Virus record (IMG/VR): IMGVR_UViG_3300042691_027893
Span: 1 to 33,773 of that record
Reading direction: 5' to 3' (one strand)
Source of the DNA: a virus
DNA length: 33,773 nucleotides
A program made the position numbers and the translations under genes. The notes below the pieces were generated by a model. That model saw only the letters and a program-made list of their open reading frames with translations. It did not search any database and was not told the origin of the DNA. Shown in pieces: positions 1 through 29,470 of this stretch. Within the stretch, counting starts at the first letter, position 1; the number at the start of each line of letters is the position of its first letter.

Positions 1-163
1 ATTGCTTAAAGTCTTCAGAGACTTTGAATGTAGACAAGTCAACATTTCCAATTGGAAAAAGCCCAATATCGAAATTCAATTTGTAAAACTCCCGAAGAAT
101 GTTAAAAGAAACATTTCCGAAACTCAGGGAATTAAGTGGAGCTTCTACTATTAGGCTTTTCAT
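1..163 (-). CDS. Probable glycosyltransferase, N-terminal part only
   Basis: This is an open leftward reading frame that starts with ATG at 163 and runs off the left edge without a stop, giving about 54 residues. It begins MKSLIVEAPLNSLSFGN and continues through an LFPIGNVDLS segment. That opening (a hydrophobic strand, then a 'LSFGN' turn, a helix and an 'LFPIG' strand) resembles the first Rossmann unit of GT-B glycosyltransferases that I associate with large tailed phages, but the catalytic domain is outside the window. It follows the SSB stop by 5 nt and is the last visible gene of the leftward operon. The family call is from memory of similar N-termini and is tentative; that it is coding is more secure, given the frame and the tight spacing. 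Confidence 0.5.
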   Translation of the reverse strand, partial: MKSLIVEAPLNSLSFGNVSFNILREFYKLNFDIGLFPIGNVDLSTFKVSEDFKQ

Positions 164-168
164 GTCAA

Positions 169-564
169 TTAAAATGGAATGTCGTCGTCGTCATCTGCCG
201 CAGCAGCCTGTTGTTTTGGAGCGGCTTTAGTTGGAGTTTCTCCATCATCTTTTTTGCCGCCGCCAGTGCTAAGGAACTTAACTTTCGTTCCGCGAATGAA
301 GTTTTTAGTTTTTTCAACTCCATCTTTATCTTTCCATGCGCTGGAACTAAGTTCTCCTTCAAAGTAAATTTGACGACCTTTGACGAGATATTGTTGGCAA
401 GTTTCACCAAGTTTTTCCCAGCACTCCAAGTCGATAAAGCACTTGGTCTTTGAGTTAGAGTCTGAGATACACATCCTCATGCGACAAATAGATTTGCCAC
501 TAGATGTTGATTGAGTGGTGGGGTCAGCCACCAGATGTCCGATTCCTACGATTGTGTTATGCAT
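169..564 (-). CDS. ssb: Single-stranded DNA-binding protein (bacterial SSB type)
   Basis: This 131-residue protein has the features of bacterial SSB: an OB-fold region over about residues 1-100, with a strand pattern starting at NTIVGIGHLVADP and a WKDKDGVEKT hairpin, then a Gly/Lys/Ala/Gln-rich linker and an acidic tip ending DDDDDIPF. In SSBs that tip recruits replication and repair proteins. It would coat single-stranded DNA during phage replication and recombination. I place the start at ATG 564, where homology begins; an upstream in-frame start at 612 would add 16 residues that lie inside the sigma-like gene. The start overlaps the sigma gene's TAA by 8 nt (557-564). No Shine-Dalgarno sequence is visible, so expression probably depends on translational coupling. 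Confidence 0.93.
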   Translation of the reverse strand: MHNTIVGIGHLVADPTTQSTSSGKSICRMRMCISDSNSKTKCFIDLECWEKLGETCQQYLVKGRQIYFEGELSSSAWKDKDGVEKTKNFIRGTKVKFLSTGGGKKDDGETPTKAAPKQQAAAADDDDDIPF

Positions 565-1126
565 TTTGAATAATTTTTTTAATTTTGTTGATGAATTTGT
601 CGTGAATATCAATGCAGCCCTGTATAGACATTTTCAATGATTCCGCGACTTCTTTCCATCCGTGCGGCTTATTGTAAGTCAAACCATAGCGCATGTCAAT
701 AATTTTTTTGATTCTTTGATCTTTTTGTTCATCAGCCATTTTGATGATCATGTCGATTGATTCTTGCGCTTGAATTTCATCCAAGAAAAAAGAGTTATCA
801 GGATTCTGATCAAAGTTTTCATCTAGCGATTCTCTTTGGAATTTCTTTTGTTTATTATAGATATTTAAACAGCGCCAGCGAGTTTCATTAGCTAAATATG
901 TTGAGAACTTGACATTGCGCTCTGGCTCGAATTTTAAAGCAGCTGAATAGATGTAATAATCTTTCTCGTCTAAAATTTCGTTTTTATCAATAAAAAATGC
1001 CGCATTAGCAATTGTCTTGTTGACTGTGTCAATGTAAATACCAGAGTGTTTGTCGATAAGACACTGTAAACTCTCGCTATCGTTTTCTTGTTTGATTTTT
1101 TCAATCAATGAAATGTCTGGGTCCAT
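557..1126 (-). CDS. Phage-encoded sigma-70-family factor
   Basis: This 189-residue protein has the two-domain layout of a minimal sigma factor. Residues about 15-95 look like region 2, with the characteristic FEPERNVKFSTYLANETRWR stretch (about residues 66-85), equivalent to the 'FDP..G.KFSTYA...IR' core that binds RNA polymerase clamp helices and the -10 element. After an acidic linker, residues about 135-186 look like a region 4 helix-turn-helix (DMRYGLT ... WKEVAESLKMS), which would contact a -35-like element or a co-factor. The size fits phage late sigma factors or ECF-like factors. It probably reprograms host polymerase to a class of phage promoters. It lies between the kinase (22-nt overlap) and ssb (8-nt overlap), so it belongs to the leftward operon. 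Which promoters it reads cannot be told from this window. Confidence 0.75.
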   Translation of the reverse strand: MDPDISLIEKIKQENDSESLQCLIDKHSGIYIDTVNKTIANAAFFIDKNEILDEKDYYIYSAALKFEPERNVKFSTYLANETRWRCLNIYNKQKKFQRESLDENFDQNPDNSFFLDEIQAQESIDMIIKMADEQKDQRIKKIIDMRYGLTYNKPHGWKEVAESLKMSIQGCIDIHDKFINKIKKIIQNA

Positions 1127-1707
1127 GATTCAATTTCTTTTTCGCTTACTGTTTTTTGCAGAACCTCAACAGCTACTTGTTTGAGCATTCTTTTATTTTC
1201 CACGCCAACGGTTTGCCATGTTAACTGGAAATCAGATTTTTCTTTCAGAATTGGATTGTTTGTCGCTTCTTCTGGATTTGCTGGAGGAACGATATTGTCT
1301 CCGTCGATTCGATCAATAAAGATGAAGTAGCTTTTATGCTGTCTAAGCCATTCAAGTTCGTTAGGAAATCGAATGTCAGGAACGATATAGACACACTGTT
1401 CAGTCATCTTTTCCGCTGCTTGTTTAATCCAAATATCTGGATCAAGCTTTCGGCGCACATGCGTTCCCCATGTAACCAGTAGTGGTCTGATGATTGTCTT
1501 CTCTTCAGTATTGTCGGTATATACGTCGATGCCAAGAGTTTTATCAACAAAGTCGCGTACTTCATCTTTCAATGAATCAGCAAGATTGATTTTCTTACTT
1601 TTGACATTAATGTCCGCGAGAACTTCTTGAATAAGTTCCGCCATCGTGTCTTTTCCGCAGCGAGCATTGCCGCAGATTCCAATAATTGTTTTAGGTTCAG
1701 TATTCAT
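1105..1707 (-). CDS. Deoxynucleoside monophosphate kinase
   Basis: This 200-residue P-loop kinase has Walker A GNARCGKD at residues 13-20 and a conserved VPDIRFPNE segment in the middle, the pattern of phage dNMP kinases (T4 gene 1 type, adenylate-kinase fold). It phosphorylates dNMPs to dNDPs with ATP, working between dUTPase (which supplies dUMP) and the nucleotide-pool enzymes that feed replication. Its ATG overlaps the dUTPase stop (ATGA, 1704-1707). Its 3' end overlaps the sigma-factor start by 22 nt. The length is slightly below the T4 enzyme. Substrate range (dGMP, dTMP, hydroxymethyl-dCMP) cannot be read from the sequence. Confidence 0.85.
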   Translation of the reverse strand: MNTEPKTIIGICGNARCGKDTMAELIQEVLADINVKSKKINLADSLKDEVRDFVDKTLGIDVYTDNTEEKTIIRPLLVTWGTHVRRKLDPDIWIKQAAEKMTEQCVYIVPDIRFPNELEWLRQHKSYFIFIDRIDGDNIVPPANPEEATNNPILKEKSDFQLTWQTVGVENKRMLKQVAVEVLQKTVSEKEIESWTQTFH

Positions 1708-2198
1708 ACGCCAGTGCTTCCAAAGCCTCCATTTCCTCGCTCTGTTTCGTCCAAAAGACCAATGATAATTTCTCTTGGCTTGATTGTTTTAGTGAAAACA
1801 AGTTGACCAATTCGGTCGCCTTTTTTGTAGATTGTGTTAGGATTTACTTCGCATATCAATTGACTTCCATCAATGACCATGTCGTAAGGTTGAAAAATAT
1901 ATCCAAAACGCAACTTGATTGTTCCACGATAACCATTGTCAATTAATCCGACAGAATTACGCAAAAATAGATTAGTTTTGGAAATTGAGCTGCGAGGCAC
2001 GACAAGAGTATGGTAGCCTTTTTCTGGAGCAATTTGTAGCCCAGTATCGTATTCGATATAGTCGATCTTTTGCCAATATGGACCATAAGCAATCGTGCCA
2101 ACAATATTAGGCTCGCTGGCGGCGATAATGTCATATCCAGCGTCTCCGACTTGCGCTGGAAAATTGATGTAATCAACAGAATTAATTGACAATTTCAT
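1704..2198 (-). CDS. dut: dUTPase (deoxyuridine 5'-triphosphate nucleotidohydrolase)
   Basis: All five motifs of trimeric dUTPases are present in order in this 164-residue protein: DAGYDII (19-25), PRSS (68-71), GLIDNGYRG (84-92), GDRIGQL (127-133) and the P-loop-like RGNGGFGSTG (154-163) at the C-terminus. The enzyme hydrolyses dUTP to dUMP and pyrophosphate, keeping uracil out of phage DNA and supplying dUMP for dTMP synthesis. Length and motif spacing are typical, and the C-terminal motif that closes over the active site is intact, so it should be active. It starts at the TAATG junction with the upstream 99-residue gene (one-base overlap at 2198) and overlaps the kinase gene by 4 nt. Confidence 0.96.
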   Translation of the reverse strand: MKLSINSVDYINFPAQVGDAGYDIIAASEPNIVGTIAYGPYWQKIDYIEYDTGLQIAPEKGYHTLVVPRSSISKTNLFLRNSVGLIDNGYRGTIKLRFGYIFQPYDMVIDGSQLICEVNPNTIYKKGDRIGQLVFTKTIKPREIIIGLLDETERGNGGFGSTGV

Positions 2199-2497
2199 TA
2201 GTTTTGATCTTTATCATCGTTTAGTGGTCCGAGTCTTTCCGCCAAATCTTTAGCAAAGGCATGCATGCCAAGATCCGCTAGGACAAAAGGAGAATAAATG
2301 AATTCCGATGCTTTTTTGTTTAATTTTACAGGAATGACCTCAATAGTCGCTCCAACGGAAAATCCACCCATTGCCAAGTTTACTTGGCGATTTAGGGCGG
2401 CTATAGCCGCCTCCATTGGAGATTCGGCAGATTCGATAAGACAATCCCACTCTGCGCTAGAACAGATATACGATTGTGTTGTTTTTTTGTCTTTCAT
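2198..2497 (-). CDS. Hypothetical protein, first gene of leftward operon
   Basis: I do not recognise this 99-residue protein. It begins MKDKKTTQSYICSSAEWDC, has an alanine-rich helix around residues 26-42 (ESPMEAAIAALNRQ), then an IEVIPV strand and an amphipathic C-terminal helix, with no signal peptide or membrane segment. I choose ATG 2497 over an in-frame GTG at 2515, because a promoter with a TTGACA box (2529-2534) and a TAAATT box (2506-2511) sits upstream with only 8 nt between the -10 box and ATG 2497; the GTG would lie within that promoter. It is the first gene of the dut-kinase-sigma-ssb operon and is joined to dut by TAATG, which suggests a role in nucleotide metabolism or early takeover. 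That role is inferred only from position. Confidence 0.7.
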   Translation of the reverse strand: MKDKKTTQSYICSSAEWDCLIESAESPMEAAIAALNRQVNLAMGGFSVGATIEVIPVKLNKKASEFIYSPFVLADLGMHAFAKDLAERLGPLNDDKDQN

Positions 2498-2505
2498 GTG
2501 AGTGA

Positions 2506-2534
2506 AATTTACCACATATTTGTCACCTTGTCAA
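2506..2534 (-). promoter_or_regulatory. Leaderless-type promoter of the leftward dut operon
   Basis: On the minus strand TTGACA (2529-2534) is followed after 17 bp by TAAATT (2506-2511). The ATG at 2497 begins only 8 nt downstream of the -10 box, so transcription would start at or within a base or two of the start codon. Confidence 0.65.
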
Positions 2535-2632
2535 GAAGTTTGTTGATATTTTTTTAATCAAAAAAGAGAAATTGAACTGTTCTTCTGAACAAAGGGAGTC
2601 TATCTTATTTCGGGCGGTTTAAATTAATTATA

Positions 2633-2675
2633 ACGCTTAGTAATTGCTTTGCGCCAAAGCTTTAGTTCTAAGCGT
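2633..2675. repeat. 43-nt imperfect hairpin
   Basis: The arms pair as ACGCTTAG with CTAAGCGT (8 bp), AATT with AGTT (with one G-T wobble) and GCTTTG with CAAAGC (6 bp). They close on a CGC loop, with a 1-nt bulge on one side and a 3-nt bulge on the other. No T-run follows on either strand, so it is not a simple intrinsic terminator. It could fold as RNA in a leftward leader transcript or be a protein-binding or origin element in DNA. Confidence 0.65.
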
Positions 2676-2679
2676 GAAG

Positions 2680-2761
2680 TTATTGACTAGCGTATACGTA
2701 TAGATAAGCGTAGAGTGGTAACACTATACAATAGTTTATTGATTATCGTATACGTTATAGA
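2680..2761. repeat. Pair of direct repeats centred on CGTATACG
   Basis: Copy one (2680-2704) and copy two (2736-2761) share TTATTGA-Y-TA-K-CGTATACGT-(T)-ATAGA, with two substitutions and one inserted T. They lie 56 bp apart. Each contains the 8-bp palindrome CGTATACG. Two similarly oriented palindromic sites beside divergent promoters suggest a regulator or initiator binding site. The second copy also contains a leftward GATAAT -10-like box. Confidence 0.6.
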
Positions 2762-2769
2762 CTTGACAA
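2742..2769 (-). promoter_or_regulatory. Possible second leftward promoter
   Basis: On the minus strand TTGTCA (2764-2769), 16 bp, then GATAAT (2742-2747). Both boxes are one base from consensus. No gene starts nearby, so a transcript from here would have a leader of about 240 nt before the ATG at 2497. The -10 box lies inside the second direct-repeat copy, so a protein bound there could block it. Confidence 0.4.
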
Positions 2770-2805
2770 AAGCTTTTGTATTAGGTCGCTAAGTACTACG
2801 TACTC

Positions 2806-2833
2806 ATTATAATGATGAAAAATGACTTGTCAA
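2806..2833 (-). promoter_or_regulatory. Full-consensus leftward promoter
   Basis: On the minus strand TTGACA (2828-2833), 16 bp, then TATAAT (2806-2811): both hexamers match the sigma-70 consensus exactly. An A/T-tract that could serve as an UP element lies just upstream. The predicted start is near 2799, about 300 nt before the next leftward start codon (2497), so it would make a long structured leader or a separate small RNA that includes the hairpin at 2633-2675. Confidence 0.6.
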
Positions 2834-2859
2834 GAAAAAAAAATAAAAAATTTTTCTTG
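2831..2859. repeat. A/T-tract inverted repeat between divergent -35 boxes
   Basis: CAAGAAAAA and TTTTTCTTG form the arms of an inverted repeat separated by an A-rich spacer. The element lies between the leftward -35 box (2828-2833) and the rightward -35 box (2860-2865). It is placed as a shared UP element for the divergent promoters; as RNA it could also fold into a weak stem. Confidence 0.5.
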
Positions 2860-2887
2860 TTGACATTGGCGAGATTTTGACGATAGT
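2860..2887 (+). promoter_or_regulatory. Probable nrdB promoter
   Basis: TTGACA (2860-2865), 16 bp, then GATAGT (2882-2887), a 4/6 match to the -10 consensus. The nrdB ATG at 2906 is 18 nt further, predicting a leader of about 10-12 nt with no Shine-Dalgarno sequence. A second TTGAC occurs at 2877. The -10 box is weak, so a phage activator or alternative sigma factor may be needed. Confidence 0.45.
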
Positions 2888-2905
2888 TCGTGTAAACAAT
2901 TTGCT

Positions 2906-3877
2906 ATGATCTTTGAAGAACAAATCTCCCGTAAACCGAATAAATATCCATGGACTGAACAATTTATTGATGCGATGCATCAGGGTTTTTGGACCGACAA
3001 AGAATTCAGCTTTAAGACCGACTTCCATCAGTTCAAAACTATCCTCAATGATAAGGAGCGCGAAATCATCGTGAGGACTTTGTCGGCAATTGGTCAAATT
3101 GAGGTAGCCGTTAAGACATTTTGGGCCAAGTTGGGCGAAAACCTTCCCCACCCCTCACTTTCCGATCTAGGCTTTGTAATGGCGAACGTAGAGGTAATTC
3201 ATAACAACGCCTACGAGCGTCTTTTGCGTGAACTGGACATGGAAGACATATTTGAGCAAAACCTCAAGCTAGAGTGGATTCAAGGGCGCGTGAAGTATCT
3301 CAAGAAATACACTCACCGTTTTTACAAAGACTCGAAAAAACAATATCTTTACGCTTTGATCTTGTTCACGCTATTCGTGGAAAATGTTTCGTTGTTCAGC
3401 CAGTTTTATGTTATCAACTGGTTTGCCAAGAACAAGAATGTCCTCAAAGATACCGATCAACAAGTTCGCTACACACGCAATGAAGAAGCTATTCACGCAA
3501 TGGTTGGCATGAAAATTATCAGCACAATCCGCGAAGAGTATCCTGAACTTTTTGACCAAGAGTTGCAAGATCGTATTGCTCATGAAGCAGAGCAAGCTTT
3601 TATCGCAGAAAGTAAAATTATTGATTGGATGGTTAATGGAATTCAAGAGCCTGGTCTTTCTGCACCTGTATTGAAAGAATTTATTAAAAACAGAATCAAT
3701 GAGTCTTTGTCTGGAATCGGATTTTCTCCAGTTTTTGAGGTTGACAATACGCTATTGGATGATACATTTTGGTTCGACGAGCAAGTTCTCGCACCGAATC
3801 AAACTGACTTTTTCCATTCCAGACCCGTAGAGTATGCGAAAAATTCACAATCCTACGACGAAGACGAACTGTTTTAA
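2906..3877 (+). CDS. nrdB: Class I ribonucleotide reductase, small (radical) subunit
   Basis: This 323-residue ferritin-like protein generates and stores the tyrosyl radical used by NrdA to reduce ribonucleotides. The six metal ligands are visible by alignment with E. coli NrdB: E66, E96, H99, E159, E194 (in NEEAIH) and H197. The radical tyrosine is Y103, four residues after H99. The first ligand is Glu where E. coli has Asp, a substitution also known in other class I subgroups. The C-terminus ends YDEDELF, the kind of acidic tail that docks on NrdA. Length is usual for phage NrdB. It begins the rightward operon and is 3 nt upstream of nrdA. No Shine-Dalgarno sequence is visible. Confidence 0.95.
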   Translation: MIFEEQISRKPNKYPWTEQFIDAMHQGFWTDKEFSFKTDFHQFKTILNDKEREIIVRTLSAIGQIEVAVKTFWAKLGENLPHPSLSDLGFVMANVEVIHNNAYERLLRELDMEDIFEQNLKLEWIQGRVKYLKKYTHRFYKDSKKQYLYALILFTLFVENVSLFSQFYVINWFAKNKNVLKDTDQQVRYTRNEEAIHAMVGMKIISTIREEYPELFDQELQDRIAHEAEQAFIAESKIIDWMVNGIQEPGLSAPVLKEFIKNRINESLSGIGFSPVFEVDNTLLDDTFWFDEQVLAPNQTDFFHSRPVEYAKNSQSYDEDELF

Positions 3878-3880
3878 TTT

Positions 3881-5533
3881 ATGACGAAAGAAAAATACTA
3901 CTGGCTAAATGAAGACTCCATTAAATTTTTGGAGCAGGGTTATCTGAAAGAGGGACAGTCCCCTATTGATAGAATTCAAGAAATTGCTAACACAGCACAA
4001 AAAATCCTTGGCATCGAAGGTTTCGCGGCTAAGTTTATTGATTACATGTCTCGCGGCTTTTACAGCCTGTCCACTCCTGTGTGGATGAATTTCGGCAACG
4101 AGAGAGGTAATCCAATTTCTTGCTTCAATAGCCACATCTCTGATAGCATCGAAGCATTCTTAACGAAACAAGCTGAAGTCGGAATGATGACTAAAGTTGG
4201 CGGTGGCACTTCTGGCTATTTTGGTGACATTCGCCCAAGAGGTTCTAAAATCTCTACTGGTGGCGTTGCAGAAGGAGCAGTTCGCTGCATGGAGCTATTC
4301 GACAACGTAGCTAAGATCATCAGCCAAGGAAGCGCACGTAGAGGTAGTTTCGCGGCATATCTTCCGATTGATCATGGTGACTTTGATGAGTTCATGAAGA
4401 TTCGCTCTGAGGGTCACTCTATTCAAGAAATGTCTATCGGCGTGACTATTCCAGATGGATGGATGCAATCAATGATTGATGGAGATAAAGAAAAAAGACG
4501 CAGATGGGGAGCGGTGATCAAGAAGCGTTCTGAGACTGGTTATCCATACGTTTTCTTTACCGACAACGCAAACAATCAAGCACCTCAAGTCTACAAAGAC
4601 AAAGAATATAAAATCAATGCAAGCAACCTTTGCTCTGAGATTTTTCTCCCCTCTTCTAAAAATGAGTCGTTTGTTTGCTGCCTTTCTTCTTTGAATTTGC
4701 TTTGGTGGGATGAAATTGAAAAGACCGATGCTGTTGAAACAATGGTGATGTTTTTGGATGCCGTCATGACTGAATTTGTCGAAAAGACAAAAGATAGTCG
4801 TCTGATGGAAGCCGCTCATAACTTTGCAAAAAATCACAGAGCTTTAGGCATGGGCGTTCTTGGCTATCATAGCTACCTTCAATCAAAAATGATTGCGTGG
4901 GAAAGCATGGATGCTCATTTCGAAAACATCGCTATCTTTTCAGAAATCCGCAAACGCGCCGATAAAACCTCCGAAGAACTTTCGTTAATGTTTGGCGAGC
5001 CAGAAGTATTGAAGGGTTATGGTCGTCGCAACACAACGACTCTCGCTATTGCACCTACTACAAGCTCTAGCTTTATTTTGGGGCAAGTGAGTCCTAGCAT
5101 TGAGCCTCTCAATAGCAATTACTTCGTTAAGAATCTTGCCAAAGGTCAATTCACTTATCGCAATCCAAAACTCGAAGAAGTATTGGAATCAAAAGAAAAA
5201 AATGACAAAGAAACTTGGAAGAGTATCTTGATTCACGGTGGTAGCGTTCAGCATCTTGACTTCTTCACCGATCATGAAAAGAATGTTTTCAAGACATTTG
5301 CAGAACTTTCTCAAAAAGAAGTTGTGATTCATGCAGCGCAAAGACAACAGTATGTTGATCAAGGGCAATCTCTCAATTTGATGATTCCTGCTGGCACAAA
5401 ACCAAAAGAAATCAACGAATTGATGATGTTTGCATGGGAACAAGGAATCAAATCTTTGTATTATCAAAGAAGCTCGAATCCATCACAAGATTTGGCGCGA
5501 TCAATTTTGACATGTTCTAGTTGCGAAAGTTGA
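3881..5533 (+). CDS. nrdA: Class I ribonucleotide reductase, large (catalytic) subunit, lacking the ATP cone
   Basis: This protein reduces ribonucleotides to deoxyribonucleotides with NrdB. Key residues are present: C81 (in NPISCFNS) and C266 or C267 as the redox pair, the N249-x-C251-x-E253 triad (NLCSE) with the thiyl-radical cysteine, Y527-Y528 for radical transfer, and a C-terminal C545-x2-C548 pair that is re-reduced by thioredoxin or glutaredoxin. At 550 residues it is well below the usual 700-770. The N-terminus starts close to the alpha/beta-barrel lead-in, so the roughly 100-residue ATP cone that senses dATP is absent. It may therefore escape dATP feedback inhibition, as other phage reductases do. 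It follows nrdB by 3 nt and is probably co-transcribed with it. Confidence 0.95.
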   Translation: MTKEKYYWLNEDSIKFLEQGYLKEGQSPIDRIQEIANTAQKILGIEGFAAKFIDYMSRGFYSLSTPVWMNFGNERGNPISCFNSHISDSIEAFLTKQAEVGMMTKVGGGTSGYFGDIRPRGSKISTGGVAEGAVRCMELFDNVAKIISQGSARRGSFAAYLPIDHGDFDEFMKIRSEGHSIQEMSIGVTIPDGWMQSMIDGDKEKRRRWGAVIKKRSETGYPYVFFTDNANNQAPQVYKDKEYKINASNLCSEIFLPSSKNESFVCCLSSLNLLWWDEIEKTDAVETMVMFLDAVMTEFVEKTKDSRLMEAAHNFAKNHRALGMGVLGYHSYLQSKMIAWESMDAHFENIAIFSEIRKRADKTSEELSLMFGEPEVLKGYGRRNTTTLAIAPTTSSSFILGQVSPSIEPLNSNYFVKNLAKGQFTYRNPKLEEVLESKEKNDKETWKSILIHGGSVQHLDFFTDHEKNVFKTFAELSQKEVVIHAAQRQQYVDQGQSLNLMIPAGTKPKEINELMMFAWEQGIKSLYYQRSSNPSQDLARSILTCSSCES

Positions 5534-5558
5534 TTTTTTTATTAAAAAAAAGTGTAAT
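5530..5558 (+). promoter_or_regulatory. Leaderless-type promoter for gene at 5567
   Basis: TTGATT (5530-5535), 17 bp containing T- and A-tracts, then TGTAAT (5553-5558). The ATG at 5567 is 8 nt downstream of the -10 box. It lies in the 33-nt gap after nrdA. Confidence 0.6.
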
Positions 5559-5566
5559 AAGTTCGT

Positions 5567-6541
5567 ATGGAATTGGACTTCTCTTGTCAAATTAAAGACC
5601 TCTTTGAAAATTCAGAAGCGGCAAAAAGATCTGGACCAAAAAGCGGGGCGCAAACCCCCGCTAAACCGTCTGAGCGCAGAAAAGGCTCTGAAAAAAATCC
5701 AGCAGGTTCCGCATCGAAAGATGGCGCAAAGATTGAATTTACGGAAAAGATTGTCAATTCTTTGCAAGAGAAAGTCAAAAACCATAACGAAAAACACAGT
5801 AAAAAAGTCACGCTTTCTCAATTGAAGAAAGTCTATCGTCGCGGCTTGGGCGCGTTTTCTTCGTCTCACAGACCAGGACAGAATAGAAACAGTTGGGCGA
5901 TGGCTCGCGTCAATATGTTTTTGAAGATGCAAGCTGGCGGCAAAGTAAAGAATTCCTATCGCGCTGCCGATCAAGATGTGGCGGCTGGTGAAGAATTGTA
6001 TTACGAGCAAAAGCCAGAAGATGTTTTTTGGGAGTTTGATTCTATTGACTTTGATTTGGCGCGTATTGATCTTTTGAAAGCTAATGTAGACTTGGATGAA
6101 GAAGGAGACATTGATCTCTTTGATATTGATTACAGCGAAGCTGAGAAAAAGACTCTTGGCAAACCATTTCGTCTTCCTAGTGGCTCAAACAAAAAATTCG
6201 GTGTCTATGTCAAAAATGACAAAGGAAACACTGTGATGGTTAAATTTGGCGATCCAAATATGGAGATTCGTAGAGATGATCCTGACCGCAGAAAAAACTT
6301 CCGCGCTCGTCATCAGTGCGATACCAATGTTGGTCCTCGCTGGAAAGCTCGTTATTGGAGCTGCCGATTCTGGAGCAAAAAACCAGTATCCTCTATGGCA
6401 TCAGAAGAATTCCTTTTGAGTGATGATGATGGAATGGATTGGGATTGGGATGATTCTGAATTTGTAGAATACGAAGAATTTATTGCCGAAAATCCAGAGC
6501 TGAAAAATGTAGAAATTCAGATTGAAGAATTTGATCTGTAA
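5567..6541 (+). CDS. Conserved phage protein of unknown function with two motif modules
   Basis: This 324-residue protein has a Lys/Ser/Pro-rich low-complexity segment (about 18-55) and then two modules. The first (about 80-120) has KKVYRRGLGAF and NSWAMARVNMF, a pattern I recall from conserved phage domains of unknown function. The second (about 205-270) has VKFGDPNMEIRRDDPDRR, then FRARHQCD and WKARYWSCRFW, which I recall as a module attached to various phage proteins, including virion-related ones. The C-terminal third is strongly acidic (DDDGMDWDWDDSEF). The basic Cys/His/Trp-containing core might bind nucleic acid or a metal, but no catalytic motif is clear. It has its own leaderless-type promoter and sits between the reductase and glycan genes. 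I assign no function. Confidence 0.7.
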   Translation: MELDFSCQIKDLFENSEAAKRSGPKSGAQTPAKPSERRKGSEKNPAGSASKDGAKIEFTEKIVNSLQEKVKNHNEKHSKKVTLSQLKKVYRRGLGAFSSSHRPGQNRNSWAMARVNMFLKMQAGGKVKNSYRAADQDVAAGEELYYEQKPEDVFWEFDSIDFDLARIDLLKANVDLDEEGDIDLFDIDYSEAEKKTLGKPFRLPSGSNKKFGVYVKNDKGNTVMVKFGDPNMEIRRDDPDRRKNFRARHQCDTNVGPRWKARYWSCRFWSKKPVSSMASEEFLLSDDDGMDWDWDDSEFVEYEEFIAENPELKNVEIQIEEFDL

Positions 6542-28819: not shown

Positions 28820-29453
28820 CTTTATCTTTTGGTTGGGTGGTGAATTCCGTCATGTAACTGTAATCAGTGAATAGTGTGCGTTTGTTTTCAACACTGTATA
28901 CTGTCAAGTCGATTTTATATCCTGGGTTTTTGTCAATTGGTTTATCCACCCATGCATTGTCATGCCATACAATACGATTGTTCGGGTAAGCATAAAAATT
29001 ACCATTGTCCATCTTGAATACATGAGCGCATTTATGTTCTGGCGTTTCAGAGAAGTTGGTGTCCAAGATACTCTTGTTCTCCCATCCCCAATCAAGAGTG
29101 AACATATACTCTCCCGCTTCTTTGGTATTGGATGGGGTAATCAATAAAGCCCTCAATCCTTTCATTCGTGTGCGAACCTGAACATCAACATAAGGACTAA
29201 AACAATCCCAATACATAGCATGTTCTAGCGGCACTGGATCACAAGGTTTCCAGCAAAACGCTGTAATAGGTCTGCGAGTCCAATTGACTCCATTGGTTAA
29301 GAATGCCTCAAACAAAGGAACTCTCTTTTCAATTGACGCTACAGAATGAACATCACATGGAGTATACTCACCACGTCCTTTTTCGTGATTAAAAAGATAT
29401 TCATTACGCAACAGGCAAGTAATCGTGGGAATATTATGATTTAAATAAGGCAC
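28806..29453 (-). CDS. Conserved phage protein, unknown function
   Basis: The protein has 215 residues. It has a conserved-looking core: TCLLRNEYLFNHEKGRGEYT at the start, HSVASIEKRVPLFEAFL, TAFCWKPCDPVPLEHAMYWD, and TPEHKCAHVFKMDNGNFYAYPNNRIVWHD. The C-x3-C and H-K-C-A-H segments could bind a metal, but the family has no function I can name. I recall relatives of this sequence in other phage genomes as uncharacterised proteins. It is the first gene of the leftward fibre operon, with its start only 17 nt from that of the divergent gene at 29471. Overlap with the SET gene (14 nt) means the two are co-translated and may act together. Confidence 0.72.
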   Translation of the reverse strand: MPYLNHNIPTITCLLRNEYLFNHEKGRGEYTPCDVHSVASIEKRVPLFEAFLTNGVNWTRRPITAFCWKPCDPVPLEHAMYWDCFSPYVDVQVRTRMKGLRALLITPSNTKEAGEYMFTLDWGWENKSILDTNFSETPEHKCAHVFKMDNGNFYAYPNNRIVWHDNAWVDKPIDKNPGYKIDLTVYSVENKRTLFTDYSYMTEFTTQPKDKDVSQ

Positions 29454-29457
29454 ATCT

Positions 29458-29463
29458 TATCTT
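29458..29463 (+). promoter_or_regulatory. Possible -10 box for gene at 29471
   Basis: TATCTT ends 7 nt before ATG 29471, the spacing seen at the leaderless-type promoters of this phage, but no convincing -35 box is present. The divergent intergenic gap is only 17 nt, so each promoter must extend into the other gene. Confidence 0.3.
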
Positions 29464-29470
29464 ACACTTT

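Follow-up and report, generated by a model that had tools for sequence, protein, structure and literature searches.

A promoter with a perfect match to the sigma-70 consensus, here named P1, stands in an intergenic region of about 400 nt that separates two operons running apart in a virus record of 33,773 bases (the window, i.e. the whole stretch of DNA that was analysed), the gene content of which is that of a tailed phage. The promoter is conserved among relatives, an array of spaced repeat boxes is found in these relatives as well, and the array is located downstream of P1 in both orientations in which the promoter occurs. From this anatomy we infer origin activity: we tentatively propose, at somewhat less than even chances, that the region is a conserved divergent control region in which the boxes and the AT-rich tract constitute a transcribed replication origin, with transcription of the operon as a second role.

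The features of the locus are collected in Table 1. The leftward operon comprises, in this order, orf105 and the genes for dUTPase, a deoxynucleoside monophosphate (dNMP) kinase, a sigma-like protein and a single-strand DNA-binding protein (SSB), and the rightward operon comprises nrdB and nrdA; the gap that contains P1 is the longest in the window between open reading frames (ORFs) of at least 60 aa. The small orf105 family protein, which heads the leftward operon in the window's lineage, was matched by neither Pfam nor PHROG entries at E 0.001. An alternative GTG start at 2515 is possible for its gene, and this GTG is not found at that place in L001. A feature absent from the earlier note is that the start of nrdB, on the opposite strand, is 72 nt behind P1, and P1 therefore belongs to a divergent promoter pair. 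The A/T tract between the -35 elements of this pair is presumably UP-element-like.

Table 1. Features of the P1 locus and the flanking operons (positions in the window)
Feature	Position	Strand	Basis or remark
Single-strand DNA-binding protein	169..612	-	Pfam/PHROG scan
Phage sigma-factor-like protein (regions 2 and 4)	557..1126	-	PHROG, RpoD profile, structural matches
Deoxynucleoside monophosphate kinase	1105..1707	-	Pfam/PHROG scan
dUTPase	1704..2198	-	Pfam/PHROG scan
orf105 family protein	2198..2497	-	99 aa from ATG 2497
P2, gene-proximal promoter-like site TTGACA-17-TAAATT	2506..2534	-	Promoter scan
AT-rich tract TTTAAATTAATTATAA, beyond the last box	2618..2633		Positional match to TTTTATAAATATATTATAAA of sigma-left relatives
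Inverted repeat, arms 2633-2640/2668-2675 (ACGCTTAG/CTAAGCGT)	2633..2675	-	Arms are oppositely oriented box sequences
CG-cored boxes at 2634-2635, 2652-2653, 2673-2674, 2691-2692, 2709-2710, 2747-2748, 2753-2754	2634..2754	-	Weak version of the relatives' array
Direct repeat TTATTGAYTAKCGTATACGT	2680-2699 and 2736-2755		Copies 90% identical
Palindrome AGTAC-GTA-GTACT (minus strand), AGTACGTAGTACT	2792..2804		Centred about 8 nt past the -10 element, at the predicted start
P1: TTGACA (2833-2828), 16 bp, TATAAT (2811-2806)	2806..2833	-	Perfect sigma-70 consensus
A/T tract between back-to-back -35 elements of P1 and the nrdB site	2834..2859		Inverted repeats I2, I12
Promoter-like site of nrdB, TTGACA-16-GATAGT	2860..2887	+	Promoter scan
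GTGTAA, AGTGTAA-type instance before nrdB	2890..2895	+	Motif that precedes many genes in five related contigs
nrdB, ribonucleotide reductase small subunit	2906..3877	+	Pfam/PHROG scan
nrdA, ribonucleotide reductase large subunit	3881..5533	+	Pfam/PHROG scan

The earlier note had described P1 as a complete sigma-70 consensus on the minus strand and as the strongest-looking promoter of the window, and both descriptions were borne out. The two hexamers (2833-2806) are conserved in relatives and their distance lies within the 16-18 bp of that consensus. Moreover, P1 is the only exact TTGACA/TATAAT match with a spacer of 15-19 bp in the window (the mean over 100 shuffles was 0.05), and it ranks first of 22 promoter-like sites in positions 1-6000. 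Its predicted start at about 2799 is followed by some 300 nt up to the ATG at 2497, and no minus-strand ORF of at least 20 aa begins between P1 and the leftward gene, as had been stated. The promoter that the earlier note assigned to the operon itself is present too (P2); it is weaker than P1, and its predicted start falls within a few nt of the ATG. The view that P1 transcribes a gene-free stretch, separately from the gene-proximal promoter, was supported.

Relatives were collected by scans with NrdB, the sigma-like protein and dUTPase, in which the best 80 of 512 NrdB relatives and the best 80 of 287 sigma relatives were kept. The divergent layout represents a minority: a gene of the operon is read away upstream of nrdB in 14 of the 80 kept NrdB loci. 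Among the sigma loci fetched, nrdB is read away from the operon in 70 of 80. The total of 115 loci comprised 81 that yielded 53 distinct regions, two (L023, L026) in which the genes were too far apart, and 32 (8 distinct regions) that were lost to the automatic choice of gene starts; addition of L001, L004 and L057 by hand resulted in 56 distinct nrdB-divergent intergenic regions, the window included. When all sites were counted, a 12/12 match to the consensus was present in 34/56 regions and a match of at least 11/12 in 51/56, against means of 0 and 0.84 and maxima of 0 and 3 in 50 rounds of shuffling with all sites. These counts include gene-start-adjacent sites in L022, L057, L094 and L164. 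After removal of such sites, the numbers were 33/56 and 47/56, and P1 was directed leftward in 30 and rightward in 3 of the 33 regions with 12/12. Five further regions stood outside these counts: L082 has a 12/12 match, L096, L097 and L100 have 10/12 at the place of P1 and L157 has none. With these five included, 12/12 is reached in 34/61 and at least 11/12 in 48/61 regions.

The same picture emerged from 19 long contigs. A 12/12 match falls within this intergenic region in 13 of them (in G007 it adjoins a gene start), and in 10 of those 13 it is the sole 12/12 match of the contig; G005, G009, G016 and G018 have such matches elsewhere only, and G004 and G017 have none. In addition, the window and L004 differ at only two spacer bases from the -35 element through 20 nt past TATAAT, with much of the remainder diverged. 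A single consensus match does not prove use, and P1 could in principle be an unused match that arose by chance; yet the recurrence of 12/12 away from gene starts in 33/56 regions, the zero count in shuffles with all sites included and the near identity of this stretch in L004 make this hardly credible. Judged by its conservation, P1 is real and not a chance match.

The boxes downstream of P1 are less distinct in the window than in its relatives. Five adjacent steps of 18-21 bp separate the boxes of the window, and its five spaced CG pairs compare with 2.0 expected, a number reached by 193/5000 shuffles. As many spaced pairs were found in 105/668 other slices of the window, and in 5/107 of the AT-rich slices, and TRF gave no tandem repeat row on the region. 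Among 16 non-sigma representatives, CG pairs at a distance of 17-20 bp numbered 44 against 17.6, and 39 against 15.4 with the window left out, values that 0/1000 shuffles attained in either case; the representatives in this spacing test (16 and 16) were hand-chosen.

The array is clearest in what we term the sigma-left group (34 regions), where P1 is followed by the palindrome, by ACG boxes at 17-19 bp, by TTTTATAAATATATTATAAA or a close form and then by the sigma gene. L159 departs from this box pattern. All of the 30 members (out of 34) in which the search was tried have four ACG boxes that abut the AT-rich tract, with ACG invariant and with a spacing of 17-19 bp that is partly due to selection, since only such steps were accepted. 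When spacing was counted without this selection, the group had 75 CG pairs at 18 bp, where shuffles gave 11.0. Furthermore, CCGTTTCACGG occurs as a single copy, at this locus, in 12/12 contigs of the group. In G004 and G006 a strict chain of four ACG is present, and nowhere but at this locus; none was found in the window, G001, G002 and G009. The period of the boxes varies among lineages and is either 18-19 or 26 bp, TRF units being 19 bp in L158 and 26 bp in L263.

Two elements that characterize an iteron origin can be compared with the locus: an adjacent AT-rich tract, which may unwind, is present, and regular tandem repeats are present in the relatives and weak in the window, as described above. 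On the scale of 100 bp, the weakest part of the locus belongs to the 0.02-0.8% of six sequences that melt most readily. The locus is the most easily melted site in none of these six, and by 300-bp stretches up to 3% of a sequence is weaker. Cumulative GC skew in five long contigs had no turning point at the locus, a measure that is confounded by gene orientation and affected by uncertain contig completeness. An initiator protein was not found among the eight locus-adjacent genes scanned against Pfam and PHROGs. The reading of the AT-rich tract as a T4-type late promoter (TATAAATA) was rejected, as this motif has one copy in the window versus 1.63 in shuffles and no clear enrichment upstream of genes.

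The palindrome at the predicted start of P1 is identical in L001, L004 and L082, and at the equivalent place the sigma-left relatives carry CCGT-GAA-ACGG (CCGTGAAACGG or a close form). In a position profile of representatives picked by hand (36 of 60 regions), palindromes with 4 or more of 5 pairs are most frequent at centre 8 with 11/36, the next value being 5. A start-site palindrome as a general rule was nevertheless discarded: most centre-8 cases belong to a single clade, and pairing there, on average 1.83, is unremarkable (1.94 at 9, 1.92 at 5 and 23).

In nine relatives, oriented by tblastn, P1 is directed toward nrdB. The match is 12/12 in L041, L052, L053, L247, L248, L266 and L269, 11/12 in L263 and 10/12 in L255. 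Here the repeats are again downstream of P1, and what is constant across both orientations is a P1 that reads into repeats. L253 has the repeats and a hairpin without a clear P1. Between the sigma and nrdB genes of L263 (3635-3714), L255 and L253, the repeats are about 26 bp long and consist of two alternating palindromes, one GGATACGTATCC-like and one ACAGTACTGT-like (TRF on L263 only). After the array, the flipped lineages carry a hairpin with the constant loop TCWCTWCGTTC, the stem of which varies while pairing is kept at most positions (ten sequences); this hairpin does covary, and in some cases a T run lies beyond it. The hairpin is a wider element, being shared by contigs that have neither nrdB nor sigma hits (L249, L250, L264, L270, L272). 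Considering this distribution and the lack of an exact copy in the window, it was dismissed as an explanation of P1.

The flipped relatives bear on the proposal of the earlier note that P1 produces a discrete non-coding RNA of 200-300 nt, which would contain the hairpin at 2633-2675 and end near the T-rich stretch at 2545-2565. We consider this proposal improbable. In its favour are the separation of P1 from the operon's own promoter and the mostly paired, changing stem and occasional T run of the TCWCTWCGTTC hairpin. Against it, a simple pattern scan of the window's minus strand revealed nothing terminator-like between P1 and the operon, and the T-rich stretch is without a terminator-like hairpin on that strand. 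By the same kind of scan, just one of 50 leftward leaders (L140) has a terminator-like site, where the count covers 50 of the 56 regions and the other six are without a leftward P1. The consensus fold of 31 aligned sigma-left leaders contained 8 pairs with 0 compensatory changes, and an Rfam search gave no match at gathering score. As to the hairpin itself, its arms exist as described; a conserved small-RNA structure could not be upheld. Inspection by eye revealed that the outer arms lose 2/8 pairs in L004 and that the inner stem loses one pair in L001 and L082, and three leader folds (z of -0.30, -0.44 and -1.57) were not better than shuffles by a wide margin. Moreover, the leader extends to the sigma gene in the 34 sigma-left regions, and the Shine-Dalgarno-like AAAAAGG or GGAAAAAG is present in the last 80 nt in 17/34. 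On the simple reading, the RNA from P1 would be the 5' leader of the leftward operon; a discrete short RNA is the less likely alternative, with the flipped lineages as a possible exception.

A leader function leads to the main competitor of a transcribed origin, namely that the region serves transcription control only. P1 would then be the strong early promoter of the sigma/replication operon, with a long leader, and the palindrome and boxes would be operators for a repressor or activator, no origin being involved. This is a serious possibility that likewise falls short of an even chance. It agrees with the near absence of terminator-like sites from the leftward leaders, with the sigma factor as the nearest identified left gene in 36/56 regions, with the overlap of the palindrome and the predicted start and with a GC skew that gives no sign of an origin. 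Gene-proximal leftward sites (10/12 or better) were observed in 6/34 sigma-left regions; since none was seen in the other 28/34, operon transcription alone could explain P1 in this group. However, such a gene-proximal site already serves the operon in 13/22 regions outside the group (the window included), and P1 of the flipped lineages reads toward nrdB; therefore, the operon leader would not be the whole role of P1. In addition, one would rather look for operators over the promoter, or upstream of it, than for an array of 70-100 bp on its downstream side.

The proximity of the SSB, dUTPase and reductase genes was counted in favour of an origin, and the missing turning point in skew, the missing initiator, the weak array in the window and the varying box period were counted against it. 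On balance, we rank a transcribed origin slightly above pure transcription control. A broader claim would be that a large group of uncultured phages replicates from one promoter-plus-iteron module, placed between the reductase and sigma-factor operons and driven by a perfect host-sigma promoter that is frequently unique in its contig. Transcription through the array would itself be selected, as the orientation has flipped between lineages with P1 still reading into the repeats. This claim appears rather unlikely at present.

For the transcribed origin, the following course of events can be envisaged. Early in infection, host RNA polymerase with the main sigma factor would initiate at P1, and transcription would run leftward over the boxes and the AT-rich tract into the orf105-dut-dNMP kinase-sigma-SSB operon, the RNA acting mainly as the 5' leader of the mRNA of that operon. 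The start-site palindrome and the boxes would be DNA-level binding sites for a phage protein. Transcription from P1 would aid the opening of the origin formed by the boxes and the AT-rich tract, as in the lambda and T4 origins, and binding at the palindrome would turn P1 off. The start site, the protein binding and the timing in this scheme are predicted from the anatomy of the locus in the same way as origin activity.

Several known systems share part of this anatomy. Iteron plasmids have an inverted half-iteron operator at the rep promoter, and the locus resembles them in its direct repeats and in a palindrome with a similar core at the promoter start site. Unlike in these plasmids, however, gene order and proteins are different, and there is no Rep-like protein among the genes scanned. 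A divergent early promoter region is also known for phage with a sigma factor of their own. The likeness here is the host-type promoter before a phage sigma operon, combined with a different motif (AGTGTAA) at other genes; the difference is the long array between promoter and gene and an orientation that varies by lineage. The phage T4 origins oriF and oriG use an R-loop as primer. In the passages concerned of a published account, oriF and oriG consist of a promoter and a downstream unwinding element (PMC3016281). The transcript of such a promoter enters an AT-rich element, as would be the case here (PMC3016281), whereas P1 has the full host sigma-70 consensus and is followed by repeats, and those passages name no iterons for T4. 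The promoters that T4 uses are MotA-dependent middle promoters. For the phage lambda origin, the relevant part of another account describes iterons, an AT-rich tract and transcriptional activation (PMC7466680). The arrangement of about four direct repeats that adjoin an AT-rich tract, with a strong promoter and replication genes in the vicinity, is similar to what that part reports (PMC7466680). In contrast to lambda, the repeats are intergenic and ACG-cored with a spacing of 18-19 or 26 bp, an O-like initiator was not found, and the origin is a predicted one.

If the region is an origin, the combination, between nrdB and the sigma operon, of P1, start-site palindrome, spaced ACG boxes and AT-rich tract is a signature that could locate origins in many uncultured phage genomes, for tests by read coverage. 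If it is a control region only, it marks a possible early switch to the phage sigma factor, and AGTGTAA becomes a candidate phage promoter motif for genes that the sigma factor may control.

Sequence and fold agree on sigma regions 2 and 4 in the sigma-like protein. It matches a PHROG sigma family (E 3.9e-7) and, with a profile, RpoD (E 0.0015), and its predicted model is two-domain and helical (mean pLDDT 80.6, pTM 0.49). The 50 structural matches listed are without exception sigma factors, or models or complexes of them; three have an E of 0.001 or lower (TM-scores 0.35-0.41), and the scores in the list range from 0.30 to 0.41 over the whole query. The phage record collection contained no match to the window's copy or to that of L136. 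Among the nearest cultured nrdB genes, that of Phosso has co-directional upstream genes and that of Atu_ph07 a divergent hypothetical gene, and neither is accompanied by this operon. Phage-like contigs with the sigma gene (L245, L247, L248) are found in flavobacterial genome bins, possibly by a binning error.

A literature search for GTGTAA as a phage promoter motif found none. When five contigs (G001, G002, G004, G006, G009) and the window were pooled, AGTGTAA was the most enriched 7-mer at 4-35 nt upstream of ORFs (43/573, about 35-fold). AGTGTAA is a candidate phage promoter motif, and it is our guess that the sigma-like protein reads it. The motif type is absent at the start of the window's leftward operon; it is present in many short divergent gaps, and also at 29453-29470 of the window.
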